From positions 29,451,610 through 29,515,609 of the forward strand of contig NC_052479.1 of NCBI RefSeq assembly GCF_009730915.1: a stretch of DNA of 64,000 nt, given 5' to 3'. A model generated the notes under the pieces. It was not told the origin of the DNA, searched no databases, and was given only the letters and a program-made list of their open reading frames with translations. The translations under genes were made by a program, and so were the position numbers. The DNA comes from Dioscorea cayenensis subsp. rotundata. Its lineage: Eukaryota > Streptophyta > Magnoliopsida > Dioscoreales > Dioscoreaceae. Below are positions 1-34,765 of this stretch, piece after piece; the first letter of the stretch is position 1, and each line of letters starts with the position of its first letter.

Positions 1-125
1 TCCAGGCAGATATTTTTGCAATTTTCAGTGAAACTTACAGAAATGTTTACCCAATATGTTCTAATTGTTTGAAACGTAGGATTTTCTTGCTGCTGATTTC
101 TTTTTCCATTTGGTTCTTGCACCAG

Positions 126-2247: not shown

Positions 2248-3247
2248 NNNNNNNNNNNNNNNNNNNNNNNNNNNNNNNNNNNNNNNNNNNNNNNNNNNNN
2301 NNNNNNNNNNNNNNNNNNNNNNNNNNNNNNNNNNNNNNNNNNNNNNNNNNNNNNNNNNNNNNNNNNNNNNNNNNNNNNNNNNNNNNNNNNNNNNNNNNNN
2401 NNNNNNNNNNNNNNNNNNNNNNNNNNNNNNNNNNNNNNNNNNNNNNNNNNNNNNNNNNNNNNNNNNNNNNNNNNNNNNNNNNNNNNNNNNNNNNNNNNNN
2501 NNNNNNNNNNNNNNNNNNNNNNNNNNNNNNNNNNNNNNNNNNNNNNNNNNNNNNNNNNNNNNNNNNNNNNNNNNNNNNNNNNNNNNNNNNNNNNNNNNNN
2601 NNNNNNNNNNNNNNNNNNNNNNNNNNNNNNNNNNNNNNNNNNNNNNNNNNNNNNNNNNNNNNNNNNNNNNNNNNNNNNNNNNNNNNNNNNNNNNNNNNNN
2701 NNNNNNNNNNNNNNNNNNNNNNNNNNNNNNNNNNNNNNNNNNNNNNNNNNNNNNNNNNNNNNNNNNNNNNNNNNNNNNNNNNNNNNNNNNNNNNNNNNNN
2801 NNNNNNNNNNNNNNNNNNNNNNNNNNNNNNNNNNNNNNNNNNNNNNNNNNNNNNNNNNNNNNNNNNNNNNNNNNNNNNNNNNNNNNNNNNNNNNNNNNNN
2901 NNNNNNNNNNNNNNNNNNNNNNNNNNNNNNNNNNNNNNNNNNNNNNNNNNNNNNNNNNNNNNNNNNNNNNNNNNNNNNNNNNNNNNNNNNNNNNNNNNNN
3001 NNNNNNNNNNNNNNNNNNNNNNNNNNNNNNNNNNNNNNNNNNNNNNNNNNNNNNNNNNNNNNNNNNNNNNNNNNNNNNNNNNNNNNNNNNNNNNNNNNNN
3101 NNNNNNNNNNNNNNNNNNNNNNNNNNNNNNNNNNNNNNNNNNNNNNNNNNNNNNNNNNNNNNNNNNNNNNNNNNNNNNNNNNNNNNNNNNNNNNNNNNNN
3201 NNNNNNNNNNNNNNNNNNNNNNNNNNNNNNNNNNNNNNNNNNNNNNN
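2248..3247. other. Assembly gap, 1000 N
   Basis: Exactly 1000 Ns, a round number that normally marks a scaffold join of unknown size. Open frames running through it are meaningless. Confidence 0.99.
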
Positions 3248-3263
3248 CACATGTAATATTGCT
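3248..3263 (+). other. Probable degraded nanopore adapter at the start of contig 2
   Basis: The first 16 bases, CACATGTAATATTGCT, end in TATTGCT like the Oxford Nanopore top adapter, whose last bases are TCAGTTACGTATTGCT. Homology with contig 3 (near 47930, reverse complement) begins immediately after them. The match is imperfect, so the call leans on position and on the clean adapter at the other end of this contig. Confidence 0.5.
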
Positions 3264-3905
3264 TATACAAATGTTAGTTTAATCTAATTTATATAAATTC
3301 GCAAATCAGTATCAAGTAAAATTTTTAAAATACAATGAACATGAACTTTTATTACAAGACATACATATAAAAAGTAAGGACCAATTTTGCAAATATGATT
3401 ATTTATTGAAAATTCAAAAATCTTTTTCCATTGCTCACTAATAAATGGATCTGTTTGACAAATAACTCAGAAAATGATTTTAAGACAAAGGGAAAAATTA
3501 CATTTGTCTGACTGGTTCTGCCCAAATAGCATCAAGACTTGGGCAAAAATTTGATGTTTGGAATTCAGACATTATACTTTCAGCAAAAGCTAAACAACAA
3601 ACAAACTTCATCACAAACTTCATGTGCGCTTCAAAATATATACTGGAAAACTTGCTTGAATCTTCCTCTCTAATCTGAAATATTCTCAATGTGGGCAACC
3701 CATTGATGGCATGACATGTTATGGCTGGAGAAGCTTTGAAAAATTGGTATATGATGTCGATACACTGGATATGAATCAAAAATCTTTATTGCCTTTCTCA
3801 TGTAGAGTAAATGTATTTTGTTGACTTCAAAGCTTGATCAGACTTCTCGACGAAGTTGCTACTGAGAAGCAACAATTTGTACTACTAGAAGAACAAGACA
3901 CCCTG

Positions 3906-6458
3906 CTACTTGATTGGTCTTCCTGACTCTGCGGAGGATGAACCTTTCTCCCTAGTCTTGTTATCTTGATCCTTATCCTCTGTGACATTGATTGGAGGAC
4001 TTGAGCTACTGATCATGTCTTTCTGTTGGCTGGTGTTGGCTCGGCTAATTTCGACTTTGATCTTTGGGTCAGATCTTTGTCAACAGTTGCAGAATTATCT
4101 TTTTGGCAACACTTTGATCCTTGACAGGTCTGGTTTCGAAGTTGTCTCTTGCTATCGACAATTTCTTTGACAGTATCCTCTAGTGCATCTAGCTCTTTAA
4201 CACTCTTTGACAACTTTGAATCGTCCTCCTCGGCAACTGATTCCGCTTCTTTTGTTTTCTCTTCTTCCTCAGCTTTCTTCTTTTTCTCTACTTCCTAAAA
4301 TATCAAATTTAACAGTCATTTTATAGAACATTCTCAAAGGATCAGACTGATATTATATTGCACTGTCAGCGTAGTTGATTCCCGCCGCCAGATGCGCAAA
4401 GACAAAGATTAATTGATAAATATTATCAAGGAGGTGAGGAAATTAATACATGAAGAGTTTCAGATAAAAAGAAAAAGAAGCTCAGAAATAACATGGCAAA
4501 GGAACATAAAAAACTACTCATTGCACAAATGATTGAAGACAAACCAAAAGATTGATTAAATGTTACAAATGCTGTCCAAATATCTCCTTGTCTTAACACA
4601 CAGAAACTGTTTCAACACATCAAGTTAGGGTGATCCAGTGTTAAGAACAACAGAACAAAACACTTGAATTTTCGAAAGCAGCTAAGGTTTTGCTTACTGA
4701 TGAATCCACTTACTAATGAATCCACTTTTACTAAGTCAAGATTTCTGAAGCATGGGAAACACAAGTTCCCAAACACCCTTTCTCTTATAGGGAAGTCCCT
4801 TAGGAATGTTATTCCCAGGACTTCCAACAAAGTAAAAACATCACACGCCGTTGAAAAATGTCTATATGCAACCAAACAAAATAGAAGCTGAAAAGTGTCA
4901 AACAAAATTATCTATTACACTAATTCCGCTGTAGTGAACGTAGGGGAAAAACAACATAATTATTAAGATTGCATTGCATGAGTAGCATGCCAATGGGAAT
5001 TCAAAAAGTCAAAAATATTCAACATGAGAAATAAGATAAAGTAGTAGCATTCACACAAAATGGACAACAATGGACCAATAATCATTTCAACAAGTCAGTG
5101 TAGTTAAAACATAGTTCAAGAATACATAGTTACATACAACAAACATATGATCTCAGTTAAATACAAGGTCAACCATTCAAGCCAAACTCAAAGATGAGCA
5201 AAAGAGCCTCGAAAACTATTATTGTCAGGAAAAATTTTGGTAGACCTGGAATCGAATAGCCCAGACAGAAGACACACTGCTGTTTATCTCATGTATCATT
5301 ACAATAATTGGAATTAGTATAATAGTAATGATAATCAAATAGAGGAAATATGATGCTTATGCCTAACATCATAGGTATGCAAAAGTAAACACAACACATA
5401 AGATCCTGCTTTTACACCTTACAGCAACTTACTGAAGCATAAAACATTATGCACACAAACTTAGATCTTTCATCAATCATTTAAAAATTTTGAACATACG
5501 GATAAACATAGCATGCTCCACTAAACATACAGTGAGAACAAGTGACCACAAGGTTCACATGAAAACAGAGAGAGTTTCAAATAAATAGAACACACTAAAA
5601 GTGTCTCAATTGACTTAGAAATTTATCATACTAGATACATGCTCTAGAATCTAAATCATCACAAACCAAAACCAAAATGTCCAAATGCATGTCAACCAAT
5701 AGGAATTCAAGCTAAAACAGCTCAAACTAGTAGTTTGGGACTCATAATCAGCTACATTGTGTTTAAAACCTATTACTATTAAATGAATCCTTGCTTTCCA
5801 ATGCTAGGGTTTTTTTTTTCTTCAATCATCTGAACAAATTATTATCCAAAAAAATTCAACATCTCATAAATTGATCAAACAAAAGTGGCAAAGAGAGATA
5901 TATAGAATTAGAACACAAAAAGCCACAAAAAGGGAGAACAAAGTGAGTCAATAAACAAGATACCAAAGAATTGAAGAGCAATTACTGCTTCCATCCTTCT
6001 GATTTCATAGCGAGCATACTGAGCCACCAGATAAACAGCTAAGATGAAAACAATAAATCCATAAAACAAAGAAATCAAAATAGAAAAAGAGGAATCAAAT
6101 AAATGTAGAGAAATACCTAATGAAGGCATGCAAGCAAAGAAGAACTGCACCAAGTGAAAAAATCAAAACCCTGCAGATCAAACCCCAACCAAATCAGACA
6201 TTCTGAAAAACTAAAAACCCTAACCCTAGATGAACAGAGGATAAGATTATAAAGATCGAACCCAAACTTCTTCTTTTTGGGAGGTTCGGTGAAGAGGATT
6301 TTGGCAGCAGTGGTGAAGTCGAGGTTGTCAAGCTGCCGGTAAACGGGTGGAAGCGGGGGTGGTGGTGGTGGTGTCTTGTCGCCGCCGGAGACAAACCGAG
6401 CTCCGGCGAGGAGGTGGCGCAGGGGCAATCTGGGAAAAATCGTGTTCCTGTTAAACAT
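3906..6458 (-). CDS. Small single-pass membrane protein, function unknown (contig 2 copy)
   Basis: Four exons on the minus strand: 6262-6458, 6117-6170, 5986-6038, 3906-4294. I do not recognise the family. The N-terminus is basic and free of early acidic residues (MFNRNTIFPRLPLRHLLAGA), like a mitochondrial presequence, followed by a proline run. One hydrophobic segment is built by exons 2-3 (HLVQFFFACMPSL then VYLVAQYARYEIRRMEA), and the C-terminal third is Lys/Glu-rich and probably coiled coil. Exon 1 is intact here (197 nt, 65 codons plus 2). Exon 2 is 54 nt against 50 on contig 3, with longer T runs, which breaks the frame, and the last exon also has indels. These look like homopolymer errors near a contig end. 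The copy at 44824-47327 is the same locus in the overlapping contig. Confidence 0.7.
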
Positions 6459-7403: not shown

Positions 7404-7795
7404 GGTAGACATCCCATATTAGTCACCCTTTATACTTCATTGCTTTTTAGTCATTCTATTTCAATTTAAGCCTTTTTAATCCTTTACTTTTTGAATGGGT
7501 GCAGCAAGTCCCAGTATATACTTTTGAACATACTAATTACTAATTTTTTATTGCTCATATATTCTATGAATCATATAAAAATAAAGATTTAGTATTATTT
7601 CGAATTGTGTATATTATGATGATTATTATGGATGAATTGTGTAGTATATTAATTATTTTTATGATTAGAGACGAGTCTTGAGGGATTTTGATTGCAATTA
7701 TTCGAGGAGAGAGAGGATCGAAAGATAAATCAAGAGAGGTAATTTGGGAGGGGCCCAAAGAAACGAATAAGAATGACTAATACTTGATGTCCCTA
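7404..7795. mobile_element. MITE-like insertion present only in the contig 2 haplotype
   Basis: About 390 bp present here and missing from the matching place on contig 3 (about 35850). The ends are imperfect inverted repeats: GACATCCCATATTAGTCA at the left and, read from the other strand, GACATCAAGTATTAGTCA at the right. I could not define a clear target duplication. The interior is AT-rich and non-coding. Confidence 0.55.
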
Positions 7796-8352
7796 TCTCC
7801 AAAAATCTTGTCTTCCCAACCCACCTTTAGAGAAAGTTGGAGATGAGCCAGGTTGCGATTATACTTAATTTGTGGATCTCGGATCAACTTAAAATGATAG
7901 CTAGGTACATTAGAGCAATTAGAATCACCAACTTGGAAGGACTTTGAAATAATAAGAGGTTGATTGTGAGTGGGTTGTGGCCCATCTATTGGACATTGGG
8001 TTGAATTGTGCACAACCATGGTTGGTTTGGGTTTAGATACATAACTGTGGCCAGCCACTTGAGAGGGAGCACCCATCGCTAACCCACTATCACTGTGCGT
8101 GTGAGTTGTTGGATCATAGACATGTGGCAACTTAGTTGCATGATTGTGGCCAGCCACGTAAGAGGTGGTATCCACTACTAAGCTACCATTAGCGTGTCTG
8201 TGAGCCGTTGGAGCCATGACACGTGGCGACTTGGCGCGAGGTCTTCCTCGGCATAGTTCACCAATGAGAGTTCGACAACTTTGTATGTCTTCTTGGTATG
8301 TCGGGTAGCTTCTCTCAATGCACCACACCTTTGCCCAATGGTCCGACAACAA
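7796..8352 (-). pseudogene. Retroelement ORF fragment, unknown (contig 2 copy)
   Basis: Open frame starting MLSDHWAKVWCIERSYP, rich in His, Pro, Ser and Thr. The same frame is at 35288-35860 on contig 3 with a few substitutions. It is followed (minus strand) by degraded sequence and an A-rich 3' tail, suggesting the ORF of a non-LTR element. I do not recognise a domain. The C-terminus is cut by the MITE insertion at 7404-7795. Confidence 0.4.
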
Positions 8353-13000: not shown

Positions 13001-16000
13001 CATTTTGATTTTTTGTTCATATTTTCTTATTGGCATTACAGCCAGATTATTATCAGTCTTGCACCTTGATACGCTAGGAAAAATGCAAATATTATGGTCA
13101 GACACGTTGCACAATCTAAGCCATCCATCACCAAATAGATAATTACCTTACAAAAAGATACAAATGACACCAGATATGGATAATTACCTACAGGGGGATA
13201 CAATACTCTCATTTGGTGGTTTAACTTAATGCATAAGAGAGTTCCCTGAACACAGACACTTTAAAGATCCCCATTGCTTGTTTCCTTCCCTAGCCATCCT
13301 GTTGACATGAAAGGTGCAAAATAATAGATTTTTTACAAATATTTTTTAGAAACTTTAATTTTTTTAAACATATATATGATAAGTGCTTGTGCGATAAGAA
13401 TGCGAAGTGTTCTTTCCTTATGATGAGCATTACTTTTATCAGGTTTAAGCGCTAATACATGTATTTGTGTTCTTTTGCGCATGTAGGGTTGCGAAGCTAA
13501 ATATTGAGAAAAAAAGCCAATGTAGATCGTGAATGCACTATTTAATGAAATCTTGGGAAGAAACAAACCCGAAGACACAAGTCGGGCTCAAGATACGAGA
13601 ATGTGTGCCAACCTCTAGGTATTCAAGCGAGTACAATGATGTGGAAGGGCACAGAAGCAGTCACATTCGAGTATCCCGATTTGTGCAATGATAGCAAGAT
13701 CCTTGCTCCCAGTTTCTCCTTGGCTCCCACTGCTTCTCCTTCCCCCCTTGCGATGGCAAGTGGGGGAAATGATCCGCCTCCCGTCTCAAAACCTCCTCCA
13801 TCAAGAACCTGGGCTCAAATCGCCTCTGCTGCTGCTCGTAACTCGGAGAACTCCCCGCTTTACAATCCGCAACTTCTCTCAAAAATCAAAAGCTCCACAT
13901 CTCAGTTCGTTCGGCTTGATGATGATTCGGTTGCTCGCGCTCGGATGCGTTTCCAGCATTCTCTTTATGGCAAGTTTTTCGGCAAGCCCCCTCCGTTTGA
14001 ACAGGTGAAGCTGTCTCTCCTTGCAAAATGGATGGATATCGGCGAGGTCTCCATTTCTGACCTCCCTAATGGCTTCTTATTAATTCGATGTGCTTCTCAT
14101 GATATTAAACAAAGAATCCTTGTGGAAGACCCTTGGTCTATCAATGGTATAGTCCTTCAACTTTCACCCTGGCAAACTTTCTTTGAACCATCCTCTGCTA
14201 AACTTACCACCGCTGCTATTTGGGTTCAACTTCATAACCTATCTGTCGATTTCTGGGAGGCTGAAACCCTGGAGTCTATCACGGCTCATATTGGTAATCT
14301 TTTGAAGGTGGATGACCTTACATCTTCACTCGTTCGTTCAAGATTTGCTCGCATTTGCCTGGAGGTTGATCTCTCCAAGCCGTTGAGCCGTGGCTTTTGG
14401 CTTGGTGACGATGTGCACCGAGTCTTTGTGGTGGTCTTATACAAACGGCTTCCGACTTTCTGCTATTCTTGCGGTCTGGTTGGGCATGGGTCGAAGGCTT
14501 GTCCTCAGCCGGTGCCTGTTGGGAGGGAAAGATCTCCTCCACCCCCTTGTGCGTCACAAGGGTTGGTGATCGAATCAAACTCTCCCTCAGTGCAACCTGG
14601 GTTGACGATAACGCCATCGCAACACCGTCCCGATGAGATGAGCAAATCGTCCTTTCCAAGTTCTAACGATCTTTCGCCGGATTTGCAGTTCGGGTCATGG
14701 TTGTTAGCTCCTCGCCGGCGGGGTCATGTCCGCGGTCGTGGTGCTTTGACACGTGGCAAGCATGCGACTGTGGACGGGGCAGCCGAGACGAGGCCTGCTG
14801 ACAATGTCACTCGCTCTGACATCCCCTCTGCAGCGCGAGGTATACGTGGAGGCTTCTCAGGGCGTGGCAGGGGCGGCCACACCTCCTCTCGTACACCTAG
14901 AGCCGATTACATTGATGGCAAGACTCCCTCTCCGCACGATGTTACTCTTGATTCAAATCTGACCGTTGATGAGCCTCGTTTGGTGGTCTCTCGGGACTCT
15001 GACCCACCTAACGGCTCTCTTTCAAAAATACTGATGCTCTTCGTCTGGGAAATAAGCACCCTGCCTCTCGTGCCTCCCAGTCAATTCACGACAAAGACAA
15101 AGGCAAGGCGCCTTCCATCCCGCGCACTAACTCCCCTCCACCCATTTTGCGTATGGCGCCCTTGGAAAATACCTCCCATCCTCCTAGCGACCATGGTAAT
15201 CCTCATCTGATGGCGATGGATAGGGTCACTGCTGCACTAGCGTCAAACGCTCCTGACGAGGATGATCCTGGTCCTTCTTCTGATGCTGATGAAGAGGGTG
15301 TGGAGGACGTTGGTGATGAAGAAATGTCCGAGGAAGATGATGAGATCGACGATCTGATGACTCTTGATCAGTATCAAGACGTTCAGCGTAGAGAATCTTT
15401 GGTTAGGAAGAACCTTGCAGTCCCTAATGACCCGCATAAGAAGGGCAGAGTTGAAGTGGGGGGGAGCCACTCCTCCTAATTTCTCCTCTTTTTCTTCTTT
15501 CCTAATTTTTATGGATTTGGTGTTCATTCTTGCTTTTGTGTCTTTTCTCTTGCTTATTTTCATGATTAAGCCTAAGATTATTTGTTGGAATTGCAGGGGG
15601 ATATCTAGTATGGATACCTCCAACCGGATCATGAGATTTATCCGTCGTGATAAACCTTATCTGCTCTGTTTAGTTGAAACTCGGGCTGACTCTCTTCGTG
15701 TGGACCGTCTAGTTAGAAAGCTTCCTTGCAGCTGGAAATGGGCGGCGATTCTAGCGAACGGTTACTCTGGAGGTATTATGGTTATTTGGAATATTTGTGT
15801 AGGCCTTGTTTCCCTTGTGGCTATTTCCAAGGGAGCTCTGCATTTGATCATCTCTTCGGATCAATCTCATAATTGGCTGATTTCGGTGGTTTATAATAGT
15901 ACTCGTACTTCTTCTCAAAGGGCTCTTTGGTTTGAACTCTCTAAACTCTCCACTCTTGATTTTCCGTGGATTATTATTGGTGATTTTAATTCTATTACCT

Positions 16001-19000
16001 CCCCTTGTGAGCATAAAGGTGGTTCTTATAGGCACTACTCCCGCAAGGCCACTTTTTTCCTCAACTTTATTAATGATAATCGTCTTTTAGATCTTCATTT
16101 CACTGGTACTAACTTTACCTGGTGTAATAATAGAACAGGTGCCGCTCGGAGATGGGCTCGCCTTGACCGGTGCTTAGTCAATCTTGTGTGGTATTCCAAA
16201 TTCAACTCGTATACTCTTTCTCACTTACCTAGGCTTTTTTCTGATCACGCCCCCCTTCTTCTTACTGTTCATAATAGTCCCTCTCGTAAGCCCGGTTTAT
16301 TTAGATTTGATAATTTTTGGCTTGACTATCTGGGTTGTCATGTTGCAGTTAGGAAAGCTCTTAACTGCACTCCTAATGGCAATGCCTGACATGCTTTTAA
16401 TCATCTCTTATCTCGAGTGCGATCTCATATCAAATCTTGGTATGTGACTGGCTTCAATTCTATTGAATCGGCGTTACTCTCTACCGAGGATGCTATTCAG
16501 ATAGCTGAACAACAGGACATCTCCTCTCCTGATTTGCACTCTCATCTCTTAAGTCTTTATGCTAAATTTGGTGATCTTCAAAGACAAAATGCTACTAAAT
16601 GGGCTCAGCGGAATCACCTACTCTGGATTTGTAACGGTGATCGGAACACAAGTTTTTTTCATAACTATGCACGTATCCGTAAGCACAGAAGTCTTATTTC
16701 TCAAATTTCTGATATCACGGGTAATATCTACTCTGACCAGAACTCTATTAATGATGCCTTTTTGAATTATTATTCTACACTGTGGTCTACTAACTCTTCT
16801 GATTCTTTATCTGACATTCTCTCTGCTTTACCGGATGACCTTCCCCGTCTGTCTTCTTCGGATGGTGATATGCTTACCCGGGAAGTTACTAAGGAAGAGG
16901 TTTATCATATAGTTATGGAGCTCCCTTCTGGTTGTGGTCCTATTGCTGGGAATCACGCTTCTTTGCTCGAGCTTCAAAGTTTTCAAATTATCCTTCTTGA
17001 AGTTTCCAGAGCTCAAATCAATCTGCATCACGTCCTCACATCCAACCGCGTTGTTTATCAAGCTCTTCTGGACAACCACTGGGCTGCTGATATACCAATT
17101 CACTTCATCAATCAATGGACTCGGGACATTAACCAGTTGTTATTCAGCGTTGGCTCCCCTCGCGTCCATCTTGTCCCCTCTGAATGGATAACACCGGCCA
17201 ATCATTTGGCTTTGCTTGGCAGGAATCTTCACTCGATTTCCCTCTATCATCTGGGTAGAGATCTCCCGAAGTGGATAATGAAGGGCTTTACTTATGCAGG
17301 TTTTCAATTTTAATTTGTATTTTTGTTTGTTTGTTTGTTTTGCTTTCTTTCTTTGTTTCTGTTTTCTTTGTTGTATTTTCTTTTTCTGGTCTGTAATCCT
17401 TAGAACTCTGTAAACCTTTTTCTTTGTGATTAATAAAATAGCTCTATGAGCTCCTTCCCCTAAAAAAAAAAGAAGCGATGCGATGTATAGCGTAAACGTG
17501 TGCTGGTACTGTAGTAGGTTACTGTAGCAAAACACTTCGGTAATTTGCTGTAGCGGTACTGTTCACAACTTGCTGAAAATGAAATTACTAGAGAATCCAC
17601 ATGGGCATGTGAAAATCCCCCACACCCGTGTGGATGCCCGATTCCAGCCTTTTTAAAGCCTTGGCTTAGCCCGATTTCAGCATCCTTCTTTCCATCTTTT
17701 CTCCAAATTTGGAGAGGCTTGCGGCTAGAGTTTAGAGAGCCATTGACAAGGCTTTTGGAGGGGTTCTACGCCTTCGACACCGCGATTCTCTTGGAAGATA
17801 GCTATTGGGGGAGTTTTTGTCGGCACCGATCCGGCGAGGTGTGCCCTAGGCTTAACAAGGGGACCCTTGAAGAAGGCGCGACCACTCCACAAGACCATCG
17901 ACACAACTATCGAGGGGGTTTTCCTATGGACTATTTGTTTTTACTTCCGATTTTACAATTGATTGTATCTTGCTCTATGGAGAGCTAAACCCCTAGTGGG
18001 TACTTGGATTGGTGAACCCTAGGATGTATTTGTTTCATTAAACCTTTTATTATGCTTTCCTTAATTGATGTTTCAATTGAGTTCCAATCTTGAATGCTTG
18101 ATTGTTTGAATAATCCTTTAGAGTGACACTAGGGTTGAGAGTTCACCTTGGTAACCCTTGTGAGTGAGTGACACACCATGAAAGTTAAACAAAGCTAGAT
18201 TGGAGAGGATTGAGAGGGTAAGTCAAGAGGTAACGGTGCGTCCCCTTTCCCCTCCGGTGTGATTTATCCTACATCCATTTCCTCGAGTTCTTTGCGGTCA
18301 CAATAGAGTGAAGTGCTAGAGAATAAACTCCCTAGAGGATAAACTCCCTGGGGCTTAGTTGTGCAAGCGATAGAGTGAAACGTTGAAGTGAATCTAAGTA
18401 TCTGGGGTTTAAATGTAACTAAGGGCCTTTCACCTGGACCAAAGGGTTAGGTCTACACATAGGAATAGGGTTTATCACTTGGAATCCCTAGAACTCCATG
18501 TAACTTTATATAGTATGAGGTGTTGAGACTGTTCGATTTCTCCGCCGAGGCATAGTATAAAATTAGTCACGGTTGACCTTAGATTTGGGACCGTGTATTG
18601 TAGGATCTCCACGACTCATTAATGCATTAATTAGAAAGCATAATAGTTGGTTTTGCACTTGAAACGATTATCCTAGGCAGAACAGTATCTGAATACCCCA
18701 CTTTATATCGATTTCCTTTCCTCACTTATTTGTGCTTCTTTTTCTTGTTCTTTTATTCTTCTTTACATCACACTTTATCAACACAATCATTGTTCATCTT
18801 CACTTGATTAAGTAGCAACTTAAGTATTTTTATTCTCTACTCCCTGTGGATACGATACCCCATTCACCTGGGAATTTATTACTCGACAAACCCGTGCACT
18901 TGCGGGTCACACGCAAGGGTGTTGTCAATATGCTAATTTATAAAAAAATGGAGGGATTTGTAAAAAAACACACCTTAAAAATATAATTTGTTTAACTATA

Positions 19001-22000
19001 TATATTTAACTTTGGATGATATATAAATTTGTAAAAAAATGAGGGAGAATTTGCAAAAGCTATATATGAATTTATAAGATCGAGAGGGGGTATTTGTAAA
19101 AAACAAGGGGGCCACGGCCCCTTTCAGCCACCCCCGGTTGCATCCTTGTCCACAATCTTCGGTAAAAAAAAAACTACATAGCACGACATAGCGCCTCCAA
19201 GCAACAAGAATCAACCTCCTCGGAAACTATCGCCATTTCTTGAAAGAGAAAACCTAGATCAAATGTATAAAGCATTTGAATAAAAAAATGGAAGCATTAA
19301 TCCAAACCCTATGCAACTCTCACAAAGGATAATGCAAGTTCTAGAACATAAACGTTAAGAACTCTCCCAAAAAACCAATTGCAAAGCTCGTCCCATGTTG
19401 ACTTAAGATCAACATAGAGACATCTTGCCAAAGAAGAAAGTGCTAGGCAGGCAGATTGCCCGTGCATCCTCATAGTTTACCCCAAAGATAATGAAGGGCC
19501 TTTTTGCCATTGATCGAAGCAAATAAAAATACCTTGGACCCTGTTGACTACATCAAATTTCTCAAGTCGGTCATAATCTTTCATGGGCCTTGACAACATT
19601 TTGCACATGACATTCCTAGCCATGCTGTGACGAGCAACCTGATCATGGAATTCCAGCCATGCTGTGACGGGCAACCTGATCATGGAATTCCAACCTGCTT
19701 GCAAGATCTATATCCTTGTTTAAGCAATTGGAAGAACTCTATATCAACCACTTAATCGATAGCAAGAGACCTTAGCCATGTTAATCTTTATTAGCAACAA
19801 GAAGAAACAACCGTTAATCCCAAATATTTGGTTGGCTATATGAATCATTTCCTTCCACATTGCTTTATCAAAAGAAAGACTAAATAAACCAAGCTTTGTC
19901 ATATCATTAAATAAAGTTTCTCCTAAATAATTTTTAAGTCTACCTTCACCTCACATACAAACATCCATTTGAAGAGCTTTCACTTTTCTTATGGGAACAT
20001 CTACAAGCTATCTAATAACATGCCACTACCATCTTAATCAGTTCTCTCTTAACCCGTAAACAAAGAGTACCACTCCCAATCTATTTCAAATAAAGTTCAT
20101 TCATTAATCAATCCTTCCAAATAACACTTGACGTCCATCTTAACTTCTTATTTCGGTTGTGCATCCTTGGAGTGTGTTGTTTCTTAATCACCCAACAATC
20201 TGGCACATACATCATAGCTAGTCTAACAACCATTTCATAAAATTTACCCTTTAATCAAAAAGCATTTTACTATTACATAAAACTTTAGAAGCACCCATTC
20301 AGTTTATGGAACCTGACAATTTTTAAGTCTATCTTCACCTTATATGCGACCATCCACTTGAAGAGCTTCTACCATTCTTATAGGAACATCTACTGGTCAT
20401 CTAAGGACATGCCACTACCATCTTAATCAGTTCTCTCTTAACCCGTAAACAATGAGTACCACTCCCAATCTATTTCAAATAAAGTTCATTCATTAATTAA
20501 TCCTTCCGAATAACACTTGACATCCATCTTAACTTCTTATTTCGGTTGTGCATCCTTGGAGTATGTTGTTTCTTAGTCACCCAACAATCTGGCACATACA
20601 TCATAGCTAGTCTAACAACCATTCCATAAAATTTACCCTTTAATCAAAAAGGCATTTTACTATCACATAAAACTTTATAAGCACCCATCCATTTTATGCA
20701 ACCTAACAATTTTTAAGTCTATCTTCACCTTATATACGACCATCCACTTGAAAGAGCTTCCACCTTTCTTATTGGAACATCTATAGGTCATCTAAGGACA
20801 CACCATCTTAATCGATTCTCTCTTTACTTGTCAATGATGAGTGTCACCTGGCTTAAAAAGCACCCATCCATTTTAAGCAACATGCGTTGATCCTATTTGT
20901 AATATCTTCTATAAGTTCCACGCCCTCTTGGATTATAAAGCCTAGTTACCAAATAATTCTGCATCTACTAATCTCAATATCATCCGTCCTAACTTCACCC
21001 TCGATTTTACTTGCCTTAATACTAAAATTACAATTCAAATATTCTATTTTTTTACCATACTGAACTTGAAGTCTTTAGCTTCTAAAGTGTTTCTCCACAT
21101 CTCCAGCTTCAAGTTGGCATCTTCCCAACTTTCAACAACCAAGACTACATCATCAGCAGAAGGTATATATCAAGGAATCTGATTATAAATATGCTTAGTC
21201 AATTAATCCATAACCAAAACATACAAGTAGAAGCTTAATGTTGAACCGTAATGTAGACTCATAGCATTTGGGGACTCTCTAGATTCTTCCAATACAATTA
21301 TAATGCTAGAAGCAAAGTTATAATACATATCTTATATAAGATCTATGTACCTAATAGTAATCTTCTTTTCTAAAACACACCTAAGGACCTCCTCAATTAC
21401 CCTATCATATGCCTATCTTAGATCACTAAAGGTCATGTACAAATCTTTCTTTCTATCCTTATATTTCACCATTAACTGCCACAAAAATATAGATTGTTTC
21501 GATCTCAAGACCTTTGACGTAACCTTAATGAACCCACACCGTAGTTACACTCATAAAGAACTACATTAGTCACCATTCCAGTTGTTTTTGTTAAAGAGAC
21601 AACCCAAAAGTCTACCATAGCTCCTAAACAGAGATGAAAAAACATCAATACCAAAGAGATCCAGGCAATAAGACAAGAATAAGCGAATTGAGACAAATTG
21701 AGAGAGAAAAACTAAATAAAAACAGCAAAAACCCTTCAAGAGATACAAGACTTAACCCAAGTAAAAGATCAAAGGGGACACTCTTGCATGCTTTTGTTAA
21801 AATCGAGAGACCCTAATCATAAACCAAGGACATCCTTATGCAAATTCATGACTAATAGATCGTTAAGTGGCCTTTGAAGATGAAGGTAGTCGCCAACCAA
21901 AGAATCAAGAGAAAGTAATATCATTCCAACATGAAAACAAACACAGTGCCGAAGAGTTCATGCACCTTAGAGACAAGATTGAAGTTCTAGTTTAACGAGG

Positions 22001-25000: not shown

Positions 25001-28000
25001 AACATCCTTTAATTCAACAGCAAGAAGTAAACTTTCAAGCCGATGCATTAAAGAAGGCAATAATGACAACGAACTGCCAATATCCTTTGAGAAACCCACA
25101 ATCTTTAAACAACATAGTTCTGCGGGTATCACGTCAAAATGTTCCTCTATTTCACGAACCACTGTTGGAAACAAAAAGAAACACTATGAATGTGTGCAGA
25201 ATAAAACATCATGTTGGAACAAAATGACCTTCATTTATAATGATGGATATGATTAGTAAACCACAGTATGCAATTCAAATTTGCATTTTGAACTTCGTAA
25301 TTAAATTAAATAACATGTACTACTACTCTTCACTGATGGATCATGATTTGGTGAAAGAAAAAAGTTGTTGGTAGTCTCTCAGACAAATGCAAAGCAGAAC
25401 TTCTTTCAAAGTCAATATTAGAAAGTATTTCTAATTAAACATGAATAAAGTCCAACAGGAATGACCAAATTAAACTAGCCATGACAATTCTACACTTCCG
25501 GATTCTGATCATCTCACAGAATTAACTTACCACATAACCAACGACAGTTAAACTTATAACATACTATGTTTCACCACTTGGTCATTCAATGCCCATAAAT
25601 CAGCTCATCATGGAAATGTGTAGGACAATCCAATTAACAATACCTTTTGGCAAAGGGGCATTTTAGTATTGCACAAACAAAGATTTCTTTCTTCTTTCTT
25701 TCTGTTTTTGGCTATATCGGAGAAAGTTGACATTGAAAATGAGATCAGAAGTCAACAACACAGGTTTTTTCCTTTACAACAGTGGGCTATGAACCATGGC
25801 CACTATGAACCATGAACACAGAGACAACAACACAACAATATTTGAAGATTGAGGACATTGGGTACGGTGGGTCACAACAACAAAACATATTTTAATATTT
25901 ATTATAAATGTAAACCATCATATTTTTTACTCGAATATTAGTAAATTGTCTAGTAGCTCTATTGCAATTTGTTATAATATATGTGAACAAAAAGTCTTTT
26001 TAAGATTAGACAAAAATAACAAGTAAATAGTAAACACAAAAAAAAAGATAGGATGCTTTGGCAATTTGTTACATATGATGTTGTGTTAAATAACTGAAGT
26101 TTGTGACTTATATATTTGACTAGCTACTAGATAATATAAGGATACTAGATCTTTGAATAACTACTTATATATGCTTCACAATATATGTGCGTAATCCGTT
26201 ACATGTGTGGTATTGTGCGATACACTGTGTCCAGTCATGTCCATGTCTAACACCAATACAACACCGGTAAGCATAATGTCGTGTCTAGCCTTATGTGGGC
26301 CTAACTAATCTGTCTCTCTTTGTTCAACAAACAGTTCAAATATATGTGAAAAACTCCTTTTTCAGAATGATCTACAATTATTTAACTACCTGATACTAAC
26401 CCCATGTTTGGTTGGGGGGGTTTGGAGGGGTAAGGGGGGAGTTCGGAAGAGTATAGGTTGTTTGGTTAGGGGAGTTTGGAGGAGGAGAAGGAGTTTGGAG
26501 GGGTGATGCACCCCTCCCCGCGCACTCCTCCAAATCGGGGTCTTTTGGAGGAGTGTTGTTTGAAGGGGGGGAGGGGAGGGGGGTTTACCATAATACCCTC
26601 ATTCATCTAAATATATTACTATTGTATGCTATTTAAAAGCAGTTCTGCAGCTGTTCCCTCCTCTTCTCATTTTCTCGGACAATTAGTTCACTAGTCGTTC
26701 CTGGGACAAGAACTCATATAGCACCAGATCAACTCCATTGCTTGTTTTCTATTGTTGCTACTCCATCAAGGTAAGTGCTTGAAGCAGGATCTCATAGTTA
26801 TTAACATTTTGTTTTACATAAGCTTTCCATAGTTACAACCAAAGTTACCAGGAACGGGGTACGTCTTGGTACCTGGTACGAAAACGGGAACTTGGTACCT
26901 AACTTGGAAATTTTATGGTATGAAGGGGGTAGGCTTAATTGGTACGATATTTCGGGTCGTGGTACGCTTCATAATAGTTTTAGGATCATAAATAAAAATC
27001 TTCATAAAATATAAACAATTTTGTATGAGTAAAGTTTGAGTTGATTTACTTAACATTGAAAGTTGAAATATTACCACAAAATGCTAATATGAGACATAAC
27101 ATTTCATAAGTTTTAAAATTAATATGAAAGTTTAAGATAAATAACATGTTCAGTTGCATTAATATTATGAAAACACTTCAAAGTTCAAACATTCTAGAGA
27201 CAGGCTGCAGCATACTTCAAGGTTTAAACTTTAAGCTTTAATATTTCAGAAACAAAAAACAGAGGCTACAACATAAGTCATACATTAAGATTCAAAAGTC
27301 ATACACTTCTATTCTCGGACCAAAAAGCTAAGGATTTCTATTAGGAGATGAAAGTTCACTAGTTTTCATTAATATGTAATTCATTAAAAAAGAGAGGCTA
27401 AGAATTTCTATTAAGAGATGAAAGGTCACTAGTTTTCATTAATATGTAATTCATTAAAAAAGAGAGACTAAGAATTTCTATTAGGAGATGAAAGGTCATT
27501 AGTTTTCATTAATATGTAATTAATTCTCTAGAGATTTTGACTGTTGGTTATTTTTTGCATTGTTATTGTTGTGTAAGTGTAACTTTAATGGCATTCATAA
27601 TTGAACCAAGGCATAGGCTCTAGCTACATCATGGCCTAGGTTATTGTTTTGGAACTTGGATTCTTGGTTTTTCCACCCCATTTATTTTTCACTTTTTTTC
27701 TCATTGATTTTCCACCACTACTATAAGTTTTTAAAAATTCAAGACATTGGTTTTCTATCAGCTAAAGAGAATTGCTCTTGCATGTCTCTTCCCTTTGTCA
27801 TTTATTCTTTGTTTTATTCCAACCTATTTTATTCTTCCTATACATCCTAGTTACACTAAAAAATCCATTCAAATTCCATGAAAAAACAAATACAATCAAA
27901 ACTCAAAAGTCATGCCTAATATCAACCTAGCCTTCTCTTCTGCTTCTCATCTTCGGTGGTTTTAAGCATCATATCTAAGCAACTAGTGGTACCTTTCCCT

Positions 28001-31000
28001 CCTTCTCATATTTGGCAAGCTTAAGCTTCATATTTGAGCAACTAGTGGCAACCTTCTCTTCTTCTCTTTGGTGCCTTTAAGCTTCACATTTGTCTTAAGT
28101 TTAAAACTTTAGAAGCATTGCCTTTCCTATCTTTCAAACTCATGCTCCCTTAATTTCTTCAAACTCTTGGATCGTTTCTTTCATGGAACCAATTCCCGTT
28201 CCTAACGTCCCCGGAACTTAAACGAACCACGATCCGGATCGCACGAACCGGTTCATGGTTCCAGGGGGGTTGTAACGATCCTGGTAACATTGGTTACAAC
28301 AACTGAACTTGTAAAAATTGCTATACAAGCATCAGAAATGCATTCGGTTAGAGGCTAATTAATAATTTCCCAAGTATTCATTTAACATTATGGTATAGAT
28401 CAAGTGTTTGTAAATGTGAGTAATTAATTCGGTTAGAGGCTCATGCAGTGGTTTTATTTTGCTTAGATAGCCATAATTGCTTATATTGTTGCCAAGATTT
28501 CAAATTTACTATATATTGTCATCATTGTTGGCAGGATTTCAAACTCTTTCAATTTTTTTTAGTGGTTTTCTTTCTGAACTTTTAATCAACATTCTGACTT
28601 CATCATAGCCTTTTGATGAAAATCAATTTCTATATATGATTTATGTAATAATTCTCATAATTTATTTTTTTCTCAAATTTAGATGGATAACGATGAAATT
28701 ATAGGATGGTGGATTATCGTGAAAAATATGGTAGCTCATGTTTGTCTCATTGCTCAATGGTATTTCCTCCAAATGCATTCTCGTAAAAGAAAAATAACAT
28801 ACACCATGAGCTCTGAAAGAGAACAAATTAAAGACGATATAATGACACGTATTACAAACAGTGAGACTAGTCATAATGTAGTGAGAATGAGACCTTCTAC
28901 ATTGTTGAAGTTAACTGAAATGTTAGAGAAAGCAGGTGGCCTACGACCTACACGATGGGCAAGTGTAAATGAACAAGTTGCAAAGACCTTATATATACTA
29001 AGTTACTAACACATAGTGCCAAGAATCATGAAATGAACTTTTGGTTTCGACGTTCAAGAGTGACTATTAGACGCCATTTACATAATGTCATACAAGCTAT
29101 AGTCCAATTAGAAGATAAATTTCTTATCCAGCCTAATGGTGTGACGGTCCCTCCTAAGATACTTTGTAATGAAAGACTTTTTCCCTACTTTAAGGTAAAT
29201 TTTTAAATATTTTAGCACATGTACATCTATTTCACACAATTGATAACAATAAGCATTTTGCCATTAATATTTGGTAGAATACTCTACTTAGTCCCTCTAA
29301 TATAGTCAATCTGCCTTTTTGGCCGCTTTAATATGATTTGTTCCTAGAAAGTCCATATATTTTAATTTTTAAGAAATACAAGTCAATTTCTCCTATATAA
29401 TATCCCTAGGAAGTCCCTATGAGGACTTACATTTCTCAAAAATTAAAATACAGGGACCTCCTAGGGACAAATTATATTAGGGGGACCAAAATGGCAGATT
29501 GACTATATTAAAGGAACTAAAAAGGGTATTCTACCTTAATATTTATATCATGTTCATGTGTAATGATTGTGTTGGCGCAATTGTTGGGACTTATACGTGT
29601 AAAAGTGGCTTGTGAAGATGTTCGTAAGTATCGCGGTAGGAAAGACTATCCAACACAAAATGTCTTAGCGGCGTGCACATTTAATTTAAAATTTACATAC
29701 ATACTTACTGGATGGAAAAGTACTGCATCAGACTCTAGAATTATTAAAAATGCATTGACGAGAGAGGATAATTTGAAAATGTTATATTAAGTGAAAAGTT
29801 AATATAATACGTGGATAGTTGGCTTAGTAAGTTAAAAAACTCAATAATAAGTGGTTTAATATAAAAAATAATTATGAGTAGAAACATTTTAAATTAAGTG
29901 AAAACTTAATATAATACGTGGATAGTTGGTTTAGTAAGTGAAAAAACTCTATAATAAGCGGTTTACTATAAAAAAAAATAAGTAAAAACATGTTATATTA
30001 AGCGAAAAACTTAATATAATGTGGATAGCTAATTTAATAAGTGAAAAAGCTCTATTATAAGTGGTTCATTTGTTTTAGAGTGATGTTTACCCTGGTTCCA
30101 GGGTTGGGTTAGCAACCCCACCCCCAGGGTTAGCATTCAGTCCCAATTTCTACCCAACTATTCTGTCTGAATAATATTTTTCTCCTTTTTAAATTGAAAA
30201 CTTATTTATATTAAAAATATATATATTACTTGAAGATAATATATTTGATATATTAATATTAACCGATAGAATAGAATAGTGTGACTATCATTATCCTATT
30301 ATATTAATTAATTAATTATAAATCATAATGGTTACCCTTGTGTAACCCCGGCCTCAAAGTTATTAACCCCCACTTCAAATTTTTTTACTATTTTTATTAA
30401 TTTGAATTTTTTTATGTAGGTGATTATGTCTTATCTCAAAATAATGTTATCCTAATTACAATAATTTGTAATTTAATTTTGTGAAATATAAGATATTTCT
30501 TATTTAACTTTGATTGTAAAAAATATTTTAAAAATATTAAATAATTTTATATCCAAAGGGCCTGCAAACTATTTTTTCACTAATAAAATTTCTCATTTCG
30601 TTTGATTTAAGGAAAAATTCACATTCTATTTTTCTTGTTTGGCTCTATGAAAGAAAAATCTTAAAATGTTGGCTGAGATCAAGATAGATATTTGGCATAA
30701 AAATAAGCTAACATTACAAAATGTAGATAATTCATTTTATATAAAAAAGGAAAATTGGTCAATATACATTATACTCCCCCTCACTCCTCCATCTAACCAA
30801 ACAAAAAATTTGAATCACCCCTCCTCACCACTCCAATGAACCAAACATAGTATTTTTACAAATCCTCCATCCTCCTCCCCTCCTAACTCCCCCTGTGAAC
30901 CAAACAAGGGGTTAGTGAATTTAATATAGTTGTCACTTCCAAAAATAGAGTGTCAACCTTAAATATTGCACAATGAACGGACATTTTGTGTTAGACACAA

Positions 31001-33749
31001 CACAGACAAATTTCGACTAAGTAATTGTGAGCCCGACACTAATTCAAAAGCAGCCTATTCTTAGTTGGATCCTGCTACCTTCCCCTCTCAGCCTTTTAAG
31101 CAGCTTCAATAAGAATCAGACAAGATGGCATGAACAAGAAATGCATTGTAAATTAGTTATATTTCTTAATGACAAATTGTAATTTAGTTACCCTCATGCC
31201 TTTGATCCTAGACTAGATGATTTTCTCTAATCAGGACAGCAAATTGTAAATTTGCCCCTCACGACAACTAGGTTCAGGTGGACATCTTCATGGCCATTAT
31301 TTTTTCAGGGATATCTACTCATATTCATCATGCTTAACAAAAGGTACATGCAAAGCAAAAAAAAGATAAAAGAAAACCCAAAATTCAAATTAGAATATGG
31401 AGCTAATAATGTATAAATAAAAATGTAATATTACCTGTACTCTCTTGTAATCGATTATGCAGCAGATTACGCAAGGCAAAAAGTTGTTTTGCTTTTAAAA
31501 ATGGTTGATCTGGATGTTTTAGCTGAATGCCAAACCTGAGTTTTATCACCAAATGCATCAAAGAATATTTTAAATGATGGTATATCTATCATAAGCACCT
31601 TAAAAATTACTGAATGAAAGAAAGCTGACGAAAAACATTTTTCAGGTCCTCAAATCAACAAATATAGTTCTAGGAATACAGGTGGTTGGTTGGTAACATC
31701 CCCATAGTACCTAAATTAAACTACTTATATAGGTGATAAGATCCACAGACTATGGGAACACAATGAAATTCTATAACAACAATGTAAGTTCTTCGACCAT
31801 CAACTATTATTAATCAACTACAGGGAGAATTCAAACAGAGGAAATTCTATTGGCATCTAGTGATGATTTAACACTTTAAGGCATTGCAGCGCAATGATGA
31901 TTTAGTGGATGGAAGGCAAAATTAAACTTTTTGAATTTAAACTTTCTTATCAATTGGTGACGCACAAATCAACTCAAAGCTATAAAATCAGATTTCTGTT
32001 TGGCCTAATTGTAAAATCATGGGACAATTCCATAATATTGTGACCACATAGAAAGCACCAAGTCAAACTTTCTATTACTAACATGACTATATCTACCATT
32101 ACAAATGTTGATCAAGTTGAATATGCAGAAAAAATCCACATGTAGTTAATATCTTCAAATTTAATTGTATGTCAGTATACTCAAGTACCTTTCCTTATAA
32201 TGTTGTGCATTACTTATATCCTTTGAACCCTTGCGTCGACTATTGGCATTGATATCATCAACTATGCCATCAATGAAGAAAAATTGCTTATTATGCGGAG
32301 TGAAGATCAAGCTGTGAAGGACATCAACCTTTTTAACAGGACCATTAAGAAGTTCCAATGTATCATTGATGGGCACATAATCCATTCTGTCAGAATTCAC
32401 TTGGCATCCAAACGCAGGAGATGATAAACAGCATCTGATTGTATGCCAATCAATAACCACAGACCGCCCATCTGCACACTGCTTGACTGGAAGTAAAAGA
32501 TAAAAAGTCAATGAACAGTGTGATTTCAGATTACTACCCAAGAGAACAACATCAGAGAAAAACTCAGATCTGTCGAGGATGACTTTAAGGAACATTTCCT
32601 GAAATTTTTGTGCAAGAGTAATCTGCGGAAAAAAAAAAAAAATGTATGAATTGAGAATTTCAGCAAACTTTTAGGATAAAAGTAACATTCTCACCTCTTC
32701 TCTGCTGAAAGTTAAAACACCAGAAGAGATAAAGCTGGTCTTAACAATCCTACCATGCGCAAGATGTAAATCAACTTTCATAGCTTCAGCTTCCTTAGGA
32801 AGTGGACACTTCACAACCAGACCAAACTTCCGGTAAACTCTATCCTCTGGAATGGGAATAAATTTTATTTCATAGAAATGTAGTGGTACATGAGCCTCAG
32901 AATCAGACCATGGTTCTTTTAGACCAGATGGCACTAACATTTCATGGAGTTCTTCTCTAAGATAGTCATCTGCAAAAGGTAATTGCCTTTTAAAATAATA
33001 GGCCTAAAATGTAATAAATGTAATTGAAGACATATAACCGATAATTGTGCAATGAAGGTAAACCTTCATTTTCTTCACATTCAGAAGCATTAGCTGTCCC
33101 TTTTTCCATGATCAGGCCAAAAAGGTGATTCGACAAAAGCACCTCGTTCATGCAAAAAGTAATGCAGGCTTGTAAAGGGAAGCAACTCTCTTAGCTTCAT
33201 CCTTAGATGAACAAGGAGAACTATCAACCTGGCGAGGACATTTGGAGGGAGGATCACTCGACATGTTATCCCATCTAGGTTTTCGAGATAGAAGAATTTG
33301 GGTTGTGGAGTGAAATACTACAGAACTCATATTAAGTGAAATGATTTAAATGAGGTAGTGCAGAGGTTTATCATTAGATAAAAAGCCACTCACATGTCTC
33401 GAGGAAGTTTGGCACAGTAATGAAGAGAGTGAAATGCTGCATCCTGTACTGACAGATGCACCCGTGGAATAAACTTTATATATTTTCTCCTCTAAATCAT
33501 TCAGTGATTCCCTTAGATGTTCTAGATATGACCTCTTTTCTTCATGATATCTCTCTAGTGAAAAAGATTCCAGTAACATCTCATCTAGCTCATTTCCCCC
33601 TACAAATCAGATAATGGAGTTATTGATTTGAGAAGTTGAAGTTAAGCACAAACAAATCCCTAATGCATGATGATGCACTCATCACTGACACAAGAAAATA
33701 CCTCTCTAGAGAAAGACATATTCAGATGTTAGCAGCCTCTTGATTGTAT
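9059..33749 (-). CDS. DCL4: DICER-LIKE 4, helicase C-terminus to stop (contig 2, transposon-filled introns)
   Basis: Class 4 plant Dicer spanning 24.7 kb. Exons (minus, high to low): 33749-33701, 33599-33394, 33317-33064, 32969-32695, 32622-32189, 31535-31435, 25161-24956, 24873-24664, 12762-12295, 12184-11912, 11744-11415, 10087-9739, 9645-9540, 9215-9059. From 32969 to the stop every junction keeps phase. Domain order is helicase C, DUF283, PAZ, RNase IIIa, RNase IIIb, dsRBD1, acidic linker, dsRBD2. RNase IIIa shows [10 protein letters not shown] and [13 protein letters not shown]; RNase IIIb shows [12 protein letters not shown] and [12 protein letters not shown], so the acidic catalytic residues look intact. 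The three exons nearest 33.7 kb carry deletions against contig 1 (one base lost at the 33317 acceptor and a 13-base loss removing part of the RGRARM motif), best explained as read error at the contig end. Two dsRBDs and the wording around NNLQVYIC favour DCL4. Confidence 0.92.
10088..11414 (-). other. DCL4 intron, 1.3 kb, with a (GA)n run and a diverged duplication
   Basis: Holds a short AG microsatellite (about 10150-10168) and two diverged copies of a segment with CCTCTTCCTCCATGGAATCA (near 10708) and CCTCTTCCTCCATTGGATCA (near 10931), about 225 bp apart. No convincing gene. The open frame at 11097-10807 (minus) has no family I know. Confidence 0.5.
11415..12762 (-). CDS. DCL4: DCL4 exons: end of RNase IIIa, RNase IIIb, first dsRBD
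   Basis: Exon 12762-12295 (156 codons) begins [20 protein letters not shown] and holds the second RNase IIIa acidic motif ([10 protein letters not shown]) plus the start of RNase IIIb ([14 protein letters not shown]). Exon 12184-11912 (91 codons) has the IIIb signature LEFLGDAV and TDLRS. Exon 11744-11415 (110 codons) has [18 protein letters not shown] and then dsRBD1 ending [15 protein letters not shown]. All three are phase 0. Confidence 0.93.
13753..15479 (+). pseudogene. LINE ORF1: DUF4283 and CCHC zinc knuckle
   Basis: I take the start at 13753 ([15 protein letters not shown]), in frame with an upstream Met at 13603 that lies in LTR-derived sequence. A DUF4283-type region ([20 protein letters not shown] through [17 protein letters not shown]) is followed by the knuckle [14 protein letters not shown] (Cys at 14461). 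A frameshift near 15030-15040 moves the acidic C-terminus ([17 protein letters not shown]) to the frame ending at 15479. Role by family: RNA binding in the LINE ribonucleoprotein. Confidence 0.8.
15511..17313 (+). pseudogene. LINE ORF2: endonuclease with truncated reverse transcriptase
   Basis: The endonuclease has the APE-type motifs [20 protein letters not shown] and [12 protein letters not shown] at 16387-16389 (NGNA-stop-HAFNHLL) interrupts a frame that resumes at once; probably TGG originally. The pre-RT region (NRNTSFFH-like [13 protein letters not shown]) continues to ELPSGCGP near 16940. There the frame jumps to a RNase H-like tail ([19 protein letters not shown]), so the polymerase motifs including the catalytic FADD are absent. 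Confidence 0.8.
19700..21570 (-). mobile_element. RTE-type LINE reverse transcriptase, decayed
   Basis: On the minus strand the stretch 21500-21050 translates, with stops, to [17 protein letters not shown], then [13 protein letters not shown] and [20 protein letters not shown]. These match the palm region of plant RTE-clade reverse transcriptases (normally FxDLEKAYDRV and FADDIVLLGE). The downstream LKGKFY-like and [15 protein letters not shown] pieces repeat in tandem at lower coordinates. Multiple stops and frameshifts; no function expected. Confidence 0.7.
19932..20885. repeat. 389-390 bp tandem repeat, about 2.4 copies
   Basis: Copies begin with TTTTAAGTCTA/T at 19932, 20321 and 20711. 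The unit covers the RTE-LINE C-terminal coding part ([11 protein letters not shown] on the minus strand). The third copy is partial and internally deleted. Copies differ by scattered substitutions, so the duplication is old. Confidence 0.85.
21630..24000 (+). mobile_element. Ty3/Gypsy gag-protease debris
   Basis: A frame at about 22220-22450 reads [20 protein letters not shown] then [10 protein letters not shown], resembling the retrotransposon aspartic protease (usual core VLVDGGSS or IVDTGSS). Upstream frames are short, basic and Lys-rich, as in gag; other pieces (23775-23978) are polyprotein-like. Heavily broken. I cannot place LTR ends. Confidence 0.45.
22797..22935 (+). mobile_element. 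Short LTR or TRIM-like fragment
   Basis: Begins TGTTGGAAATATAGTACCAC and continues with ATCGGTTGTGTGA and GACCCCTACGCCC, wording I associate with small plant TRIM or LTR ends. The other end is not defined. Confidence 0.3.
24664..25161 (-). CDS. DCL4: DCL4 exons: PAZ-RNase III connector and RNase IIIa signature
   Basis: Exon 25161-24956 encodes the connector ([18 protein letters not shown], then [18 protein letters not shown]). Exon 24873-24664 encodes [19 protein letters not shown] and [10 protein letters not shown], followed by [14 protein letters not shown]. The exon ends at NLQ and rejoins VYIC at 12762, 11.9 kb away, with consensus GT and AG at the two ends. Confidence 0.93.
26840..28292. 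mobile_element. Non-autonomous hAT element, 8-bp target duplication
   Basis: Flanked by identical 8-bp GTTACAAC at 26832-26839 and 28293-28300. Termini are CAAAGTTACCAGG and, from the other strand, CAATGTTACCAGG (12 of 13 match), then GAACGGGG-type sequence on both sides. No transposase is visible. It sits inside the Harbinger element, so it arrived later. Confidence 0.85.
27321..27530. repeat. 70-bp tandem repeat, three copies
   Basis: CTAAGGATTT or CTAAGAATTT starts at 27328, 27398 and 27468. Each unit carries AGTTTTCATTAATATGTAAT. Lies inside the hAT element. Confidence 0.85.
28683..29790 (+). pseudogene. HARBI1-like transposase, broken
   Basis: Pieces of a plant Harbinger transposase: [20 protein letters not shown] and [16 protein letters not shown], then [20 protein letters not shown] and [15 protein letters not shown] up to 29200. 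After an intron carrying a MITE come [11 protein letters not shown] and [20 protein letters not shown], then [20 protein letters not shown] (29563-29790). The family's first catalytic Asp in GAIDGTH is Val here (GTT), a frameshift follows immediately, and the remaining C-terminal catalytic part is missing. Inactive on three counts. Confidence 0.8.
29273..29535. mobile_element. Mutator-type MITE with 9-bp target duplication
   Basis: 263 bp, nearly all of it terminal inverted repeat of about 110 bp starting GGTAGAATAC. Flanked by TTAATATTT at 29264-29272 and 29536-29544. It lies between two coding pieces of the Harbinger transposase. Confidence 0.85.
29784..30065. repeat. About 105-bp tandem repeat, 2.6 copies
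   Basis: Units start at TTAAGTG/TTAAGCG at 29787, 29894 and 29998 and carry AATATAATACGTGGATAG and ATAATAAGTGGTTTA-like text. Inside the Harbinger element. Confidence 0.8.
31435..33599 (-). CDS. DCL4: DCL4 exons: DUF283 and PAZ (contig 2 copy)
   Basis: Exons 33599-33394 and 33317-33064 (DUF283, with frame-breaking indels), then 32969-32695, 32622-32189 and 31535-31435 (PAZ region, clean frames). The clean part gives [16 protein letters not shown] and [13 protein letters not shown] where contig 1 is garbled. Conversely contig 1 is clean across DUF283. The two ends are therefore complementary reads of one gene. Confidence 0.85.
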
Positions 33750-33765
33750 AGCAATACGTAACTGA
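33750..33765. other. Oxford Nanopore ligation adapter remnant
   Basis: AGCAATACGTAACTGA abuts the N run. This is the reverse complement of the 3' end of the standard nanopore Y-adapter top strand (TCAGTTACGTATTGCT). The homology with contig 1 stops exactly at its edge. Synthetic, not plant DNA. Confidence 0.95.
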
Positions 33766-34765
33766 NNNNNNNNNNNNNNNNNNNNNNNNNNNNNNNNNNN
33801 NNNNNNNNNNNNNNNNNNNNNNNNNNNNNNNNNNNNNNNNNNNNNNNNNNNNNNNNNNNNNNNNNNNNNNNNNNNNNNNNNNNNNNNNNNNNNNNNNNNN
33901 NNNNNNNNNNNNNNNNNNNNNNNNNNNNNNNNNNNNNNNNNNNNNNNNNNNNNNNNNNNNNNNNNNNNNNNNNNNNNNNNNNNNNNNNNNNNNNNNNNNN
34001 NNNNNNNNNNNNNNNNNNNNNNNNNNNNNNNNNNNNNNNNNNNNNNNNNNNNNNNNNNNNNNNNNNNNNNNNNNNNNNNNNNNNNNNNNNNNNNNNNNNN
34101 NNNNNNNNNNNNNNNNNNNNNNNNNNNNNNNNNNNNNNNNNNNNNNNNNNNNNNNNNNNNNNNNNNNNNNNNNNNNNNNNNNNNNNNNNNNNNNNNNNNN
34201 NNNNNNNNNNNNNNNNNNNNNNNNNNNNNNNNNNNNNNNNNNNNNNNNNNNNNNNNNNNNNNNNNNNNNNNNNNNNNNNNNNNNNNNNNNNNNNNNNNNN
34301 NNNNNNNNNNNNNNNNNNNNNNNNNNNNNNNNNNNNNNNNNNNNNNNNNNNNNNNNNNNNNNNNNNNNNNNNNNNNNNNNNNNNNNNNNNNNNNNNNNNN
34401 NNNNNNNNNNNNNNNNNNNNNNNNNNNNNNNNNNNNNNNNNNNNNNNNNNNNNNNNNNNNNNNNNNNNNNNNNNNNNNNNNNNNNNNNNNNNNNNNNNNN
34501 NNNNNNNNNNNNNNNNNNNNNNNNNNNNNNNNNNNNNNNNNNNNNNNNNNNNNNNNNNNNNNNNNNNNNNNNNNNNNNNNNNNNNNNNNNNNNNNNNNNN
34601 NNNNNNNNNNNNNNNNNNNNNNNNNNNNNNNNNNNNNNNNNNNNNNNNNNNNNNNNNNNNNNNNNNNNNNNNNNNNNNNNNNNNNNNNNNNNNNNNNNNN
34701 NNNNNNNNNNNNNNNNNNNNNNNNNNNNNNNNNNNNNNNNNNNNNNNNNNNNNNNNNNNNNNNNN
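33766..34765. other. Assembly gap, 1000 N
   Basis: Exactly 1000 Ns joining contigs 2 and 3. Confidence 0.99.

Follow-up and report, generated by a model that had tools for sequence, protein, structure and literature searches.

Contig 2, a 30,518-bp contig at positions 3248-33765, has very probably been placed in the assembly in reverse orientation with its end overlaps unmerged, which would be an ordinary assembly artefact and not a real inversion. The original prediction of such an error was supported by three kinds of evidence: the anchoring of the overlaps at contig ends, the restored collinearity of the DCL4 gene, and complementary frame breaks in the two copies of the first overlap.

Overlaps at the contig ends

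The window, the whole 64,000-nt stretch analysed here, corresponds to C9:29451610-29515609. Reading 334 kb around it revealed seven contigs and six joins, each of 1000 N. Contig 2 is located near one end of C9, as judged by coordinate, and lies between contig 1 (61,580 bp) and contig 3 (50,607 bp). It had been claimed that both of its joins are exactly 1000 N, and this is what we counted (2248-3247 and 33766-34765). It had also been claimed that both neighbours overlap contig 2 in reverse complement, and a self-comparison of the window indeed showed two inverted matches, named overlap A (contigs 1 and 2) and overlap B (contigs 2 and 3) in the following. The matches were present, but their predicted end points were off by 2 to about 21 bases, and overlap B, although inverted as described, is not continuous and consists of three pieces, each of the two contigs having a stretch that the other lacks.

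The seven contigs form 21 pairs, and each pair was examined in every relative orientation allowed by the fetched ends, giving 61 combinations by the count of the script loops. Matches were recorded if they comprised at least 500 bases with at least 80% identity and lay no further than 30 bases from the end of a contig. In two of the 61 combinations the ends of both contigs were anchored, namely in contig 1(+)/contig 2(-) by a single match and in contig 2(-)/contig 3(+) by two matches forming one collinear chain. The distances between match and contig end were 0 bases for the right end of contig 1, 16 bases each for the right and the left end of contig 2, and 26 bases for the left end of contig 3. 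Among the others, one combination (contigs 4(+)/5(-)) was anchored at one end and the remaining 58 gave no such match. As predicted, flipping contig 2 converts both inverted matches into end-to-end overlaps, and this single flip resolves both joins. The whole block of contigs 1, 2 and 3 fits equally well when turned round, so the relative orientation alone is determined and not the orientation of the block on the chromosome.

Contigs 4 and 5 (C9:29537982-29599835 and 29600836-29687695) are located outside the window and share an inverted homology of about 28 kb with 83-96% identity (contig 4 33364-61839 versus contig 5 59530-23954; join at C9:29599836). This homology meets the right end of contig 4 and no end of contig 5; it could mean that a second contig is misoriented, that one contig is a surplus haplotype, or that the sequences form an inverted repeat. 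Since it is anchored at one end only, it was excluded from the support for the flip of contig 2.

DCL4 across the first join

The DCL4 product gives rise to 21-nt antiviral small RNAs. With the DCL4 protein P0001 of Dioscorea sansibarensis (1497 aa) as reference, parts of the gene were located upstream of the window on the plus strand (residues 1-51, 90-216 and 257-330). Within the window, contig 1 contains exons at 72-1848 (+) for residues of about 310-774, and contig 2 contains exons at 9062-33597 (-) for residues 379-1497, which follow each other in sequence as the coordinates fall from 33597 to 9062. The encoded domains appear in the order Helicase C, Dicer dimerisation, RNase III and dsRNA-binding. 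This order is the same as in plant DCL4, whereas the gene in the window is split over two strands in the present assembly. A composite protein of 919 aa is 87% identical to P0001. The prediction that a flip of contig 2 would turn DCL4 into one locus on the plus strand held: the exons on the plus strand of contig 1 and the minus strand of contig 2 become one collinear gene with long introns. These introns, holding transposons and tandem repeats, distinguish it from plant DCL4. One of them contains LINE-like remains at 13549-16389 (+), opposite to the gene strand, with DUF4283, a zinc knuckle and an endonuclease domain, and tandem repeats are located between exons at 19929-20800 (unit 389 bp), 27327-27525 (70 bp) and 29768-30066 (107 bp).

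A search of the genome (584,211,761 bases in 2249 sequences) for DCL4 yielded 39 matches, with 31 of 77 candidates scored. No other near-complete DCL4 was among the matches listed; those elsewhere were fragments or weaker Dicer matches. DCL4-like RNase III fragments are present at C424:36378-36566, C16:1458849-1459322 and C16:1608058-1608276; they show 46-78% identity, some of them with stops, and are possibly pseudogene pieces. The best protein matches of DCL4, as of the second gene described below, came from Dioscorea, and neither D. alata nor D. rotundata was represented by a DCL4 among the 120 listed of 601 and the 120 listed of 731 protein matches. D. sansibarensis itself has a pair of DCL4 proteins, P0001 and P0002, that are 85% identical and whose tags, C34g0226111 and C34g0226131, are two steps apart; they probably represent a tandem pair.

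Overlap A has one copy in contig 1 (228-2247, +) and one in contig 2 (31789-33749, -), located at the right end in both cases. The inverted match of 228-2247 with 33749-31789 shows 88.4% identity over 2062 columns (E printed as 0). For the analysis of the reading frames, we set the bounds of five exons and made a frameshift-tolerant alignment of each with P0001. In the exons of residues 360-378, 379-447, 448-532, 533-621 and 624-762, the contig 1 copy contains 0, 0, 0, 3 and 6 frameshifts, respectively, and the contig 2 copy 0, 4, 4, 0 and 0. The exon of residues 360-378 is free of frameshifts in contig 2, but it contains one stop and 11 bases are missing. The frame is open to about position 1227 and broken beyond in contig 1, and in contig 2 it is broken for residues 360-532, nearest to the contig end, and open for residues 533-762. 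The breaks are found solely near each contig's own end, and the exons of the two contigs complement each other. Between the error-rich zones 301 bases, intron included, are identical (907-1207 in contig 1), and of 291 columns in the clean middle of the overlap 1 shows a difference. In the genome search no third copy of overlap A bridging a join was found, the two window copies being the only ones among the matches listed.

Two DCL4 paralogues on contigs 1 and 2, with overlap A as a gene duplication, would have a precedent in the two genes of D. sansibarensis, and DCL4-like fragments are present on C16 and C424, but we regard this reading as very improbable. The 301 identical bases include an intron, the remaining differences are frame breaks distributed by contig end and complementary between the contigs, and in the stretch examined neither contig holds the whole gene, as contig 1 ends at about residue 774 and contig 2 begins at about residue 379. 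Because the frame breaks are complementary and ordered by their distance to the contig ends, we read overlap A as one locus and not as two gene copies: judged by its sequence, it is a single locus seen in two noisy contig ends. Such a dependence on the contig ends would be expected neither from two copies of the gene nor from an ancient duplication.

Probable haplotype differences and a second gene at the other join

Overlap B has its two copies at the left ends of contig 2 (3264-8845, -) and contig 3 (34792-47951, +), the latter copy being split by an 8-kb insertion. The three inverted pieces, all with E printed as 0, match 34792-35845 with 8845-7798 (94.7% identity), 35853-36496 with 7403-6757 (84.1%) and 44515-47951 with 6765-3264 (92.9%). 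The cleanest block contains 26 mismatches in 1054 bases, and one 400-base stretch is about 74% identical.

The insertion at 36497-44514 (+; 8,018 bp) is present in contig 3 alone and contains a MULE transposase domain at 38170-38607 (+; PF10551, E 2.6e-16). The sequence AAATAAAAA flanks it on either side and occurs as a single copy at the empty site of contig 2; since this sequence is A-rich, the exact length of the target site duplication is uncertain. Target site duplications of MULEs are about 9 bp long, and terminal inverted repeats are missing from some of these elements. No terminal inverted repeats were found for the insertion in contig 3, the best terminal alignment comprising 18 columns away from the ends. 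Conversely, a stretch of about 0.4 kb in contig 2 (about 7404-7797) is absent from contig 3. It includes a short element of about 320 bases (7404-7725) whose ends match each other in inverted orientation, with similar copies at at least 28 other places in the genome among the matches listed. The simplest reading of this presence and absence of transposons is that overlap B probably represents two haplotypes of one locus, and this would account for the fact that contigs 2 and 3 were left unmerged; less simply, the two copies may be duplicates and not alleles. A genome search with overlap B (58 matches, 40 of 94 candidates scored) gave no third copy bridging a join among the matches listed. Outside the repeats, these matches comprised solely the two window copies and a diverged partial relative on C1234, with 81% identity over about 440 bases and some shorter pieces, that bridges neither join.

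The resemblance to different haplotypes in contigs 2 and 3 could also be expected if contig 2 were a surplus haplotype contig without a place in the contig order. We consider this extremely unlikely: its ends alone overlap the neighbours, and its exons encode DCL4 from about residue 775 to residue 1497, a part for which the matches listed offer no other near-complete copy. Likewise, the DCL4 exons of contig 2 were not found on another contig overlapping contig 1 among these matches (31 of 77 candidates scored). A reversed contig 2 with its proper place between contigs 1 and 3 is the reading that we prefer.

Overlap B also contains a second gene, an uncharacterised plant protein for which 430 relatives were found and 120 listed. 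Its product probably has a membrane span, as judged by eye from the sequence. In the contig 2 copy (3909-6458, -) the first exon is open and the last exon, near the contig end, is split over two frames; in the contig 3 copy (44822-47324, +) the first exon is broken and the last one mostly open. The broken first exon lies about 10 kb from the end of contig 3, so the damage in overlap B is not simply tied to contig ends; it may stem from sequencing errors or from divergence between alleles. The relative in D. alata is IHE45_09G016700, located on chromosome 9 by its tag, and the open first exon shows 91% protein identity to D. alata. This is lower than the 97.4% nucleotide identity that the D. 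alata paper gives for D. alata and D. rotundata in their coding sequences (PMC9010478), so the source is probably D. rotundata but may be another Dioscorea.

This "membrane-protein gene" had been predicted to become one locus on the plus strand after the flip, and we found it on the minus strand of contig 2 and the plus strand of contig 3, which agrees with this claim. In the flipped layout it comes next after DCL4. The corresponding D. sansibarensis tags, C34g0226101 for the second gene and C34g0226111 for DCL4, are adjacent, although tags indicate order and not strand. Two further genes in the window are a C2H2 zinc finger gene at 53032-53679 (+) and a glycosyl hydrolase family 18 (chitinase-like) gene at 58352-59731 (-) in two open pieces.

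Inversion or assembly artefact

A real inversion of the contig 2 segment by staggered breaks would have duplicated the breakpoints in inverted orientation and cut DCL4 in two. Such inverted duplications of breakpoint sequences are familiar from work on Drosophila. The repeat order in the window, a, b'...a', b, with inverted duplicates at both breakpoints, is precisely the one expected from this mechanism. Nevertheless, there is very little likelihood of this origin, as the window differs from it in several respects. Both breakpoints would need to coincide with contig ends, where the duplicates in the window end. The mechanism predicts one age for both pairs, but overlap A shows 1 difference in 291 columns and overlap B 26 in 1054 bases plus two insertions. 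The frame breaks in overlap A track the distance from the contig ends, for which an inversion gives no reason. An inversion would also break the sole near-complete DCL4 copy among the genome matches listed. Whether fixed or heterozygous in the clone, such a rearrangement is highly doubtful.

An assembly artefact is by far the more probable reading and would have arisen as follows. Contigs of a heterozygous plant, probably the yam Dioscorea rotundata TDr96_F1 (v2), were lined up as a pseudo-chromosome with spacers of 1000 N, and contig 2 was very probably reversed in this step, with contig 1(+), contig 2(-), contig 3(+) as the true relative order. A real end overlap would then be hidden at either join. 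The first would have been left unmerged because both contig ends are rich in errors, the second probably because contigs 2 and 3 represent different haplotypes, with the MULE insertion and the short repeat as distinguishing features. Too few linkage markers for orienting a 30-kb contig would be a plausible cause of the reversal. In the 2017 assembly of D. rotundata, RAD linkage maps served to anchor the scaffolds, and stretches of 1000 N were used to link them (PMC5604175). This method is printed for the 2017 version; for the assembly of v2, the main text of the paper points to a supplement (PMC7749330). The D. alata paper, which gives GCA_009730915.1 as the accession of TDr96_F1 v2, contains a passage in which imperfections of v2 due to linkage-based ordering and orienting are suspected (PMC9010478). 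The case described here has in common with such errors the 1000-N joins, a misoriented contig and a heterozygous source. In contrast, the suspicion expressed in that passage concerns differences within chromosomes, chiefly in recombination-poor regions, and here one 30-kb contig is affected.

Taken together, the orientation of contig 2 is not new biology and very probably reflects no real feature. All six joins share the 1000-N spacer, and more errors might come to light if joins of this kind were scanned for end overlaps in inverted orientation. Users of the assembly would meet a gene of RNA silencing, DCL4, broken over two strands, a doubled second gene and a false 30-kb inversion in comparisons with other yams. 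The error is small and correctable.
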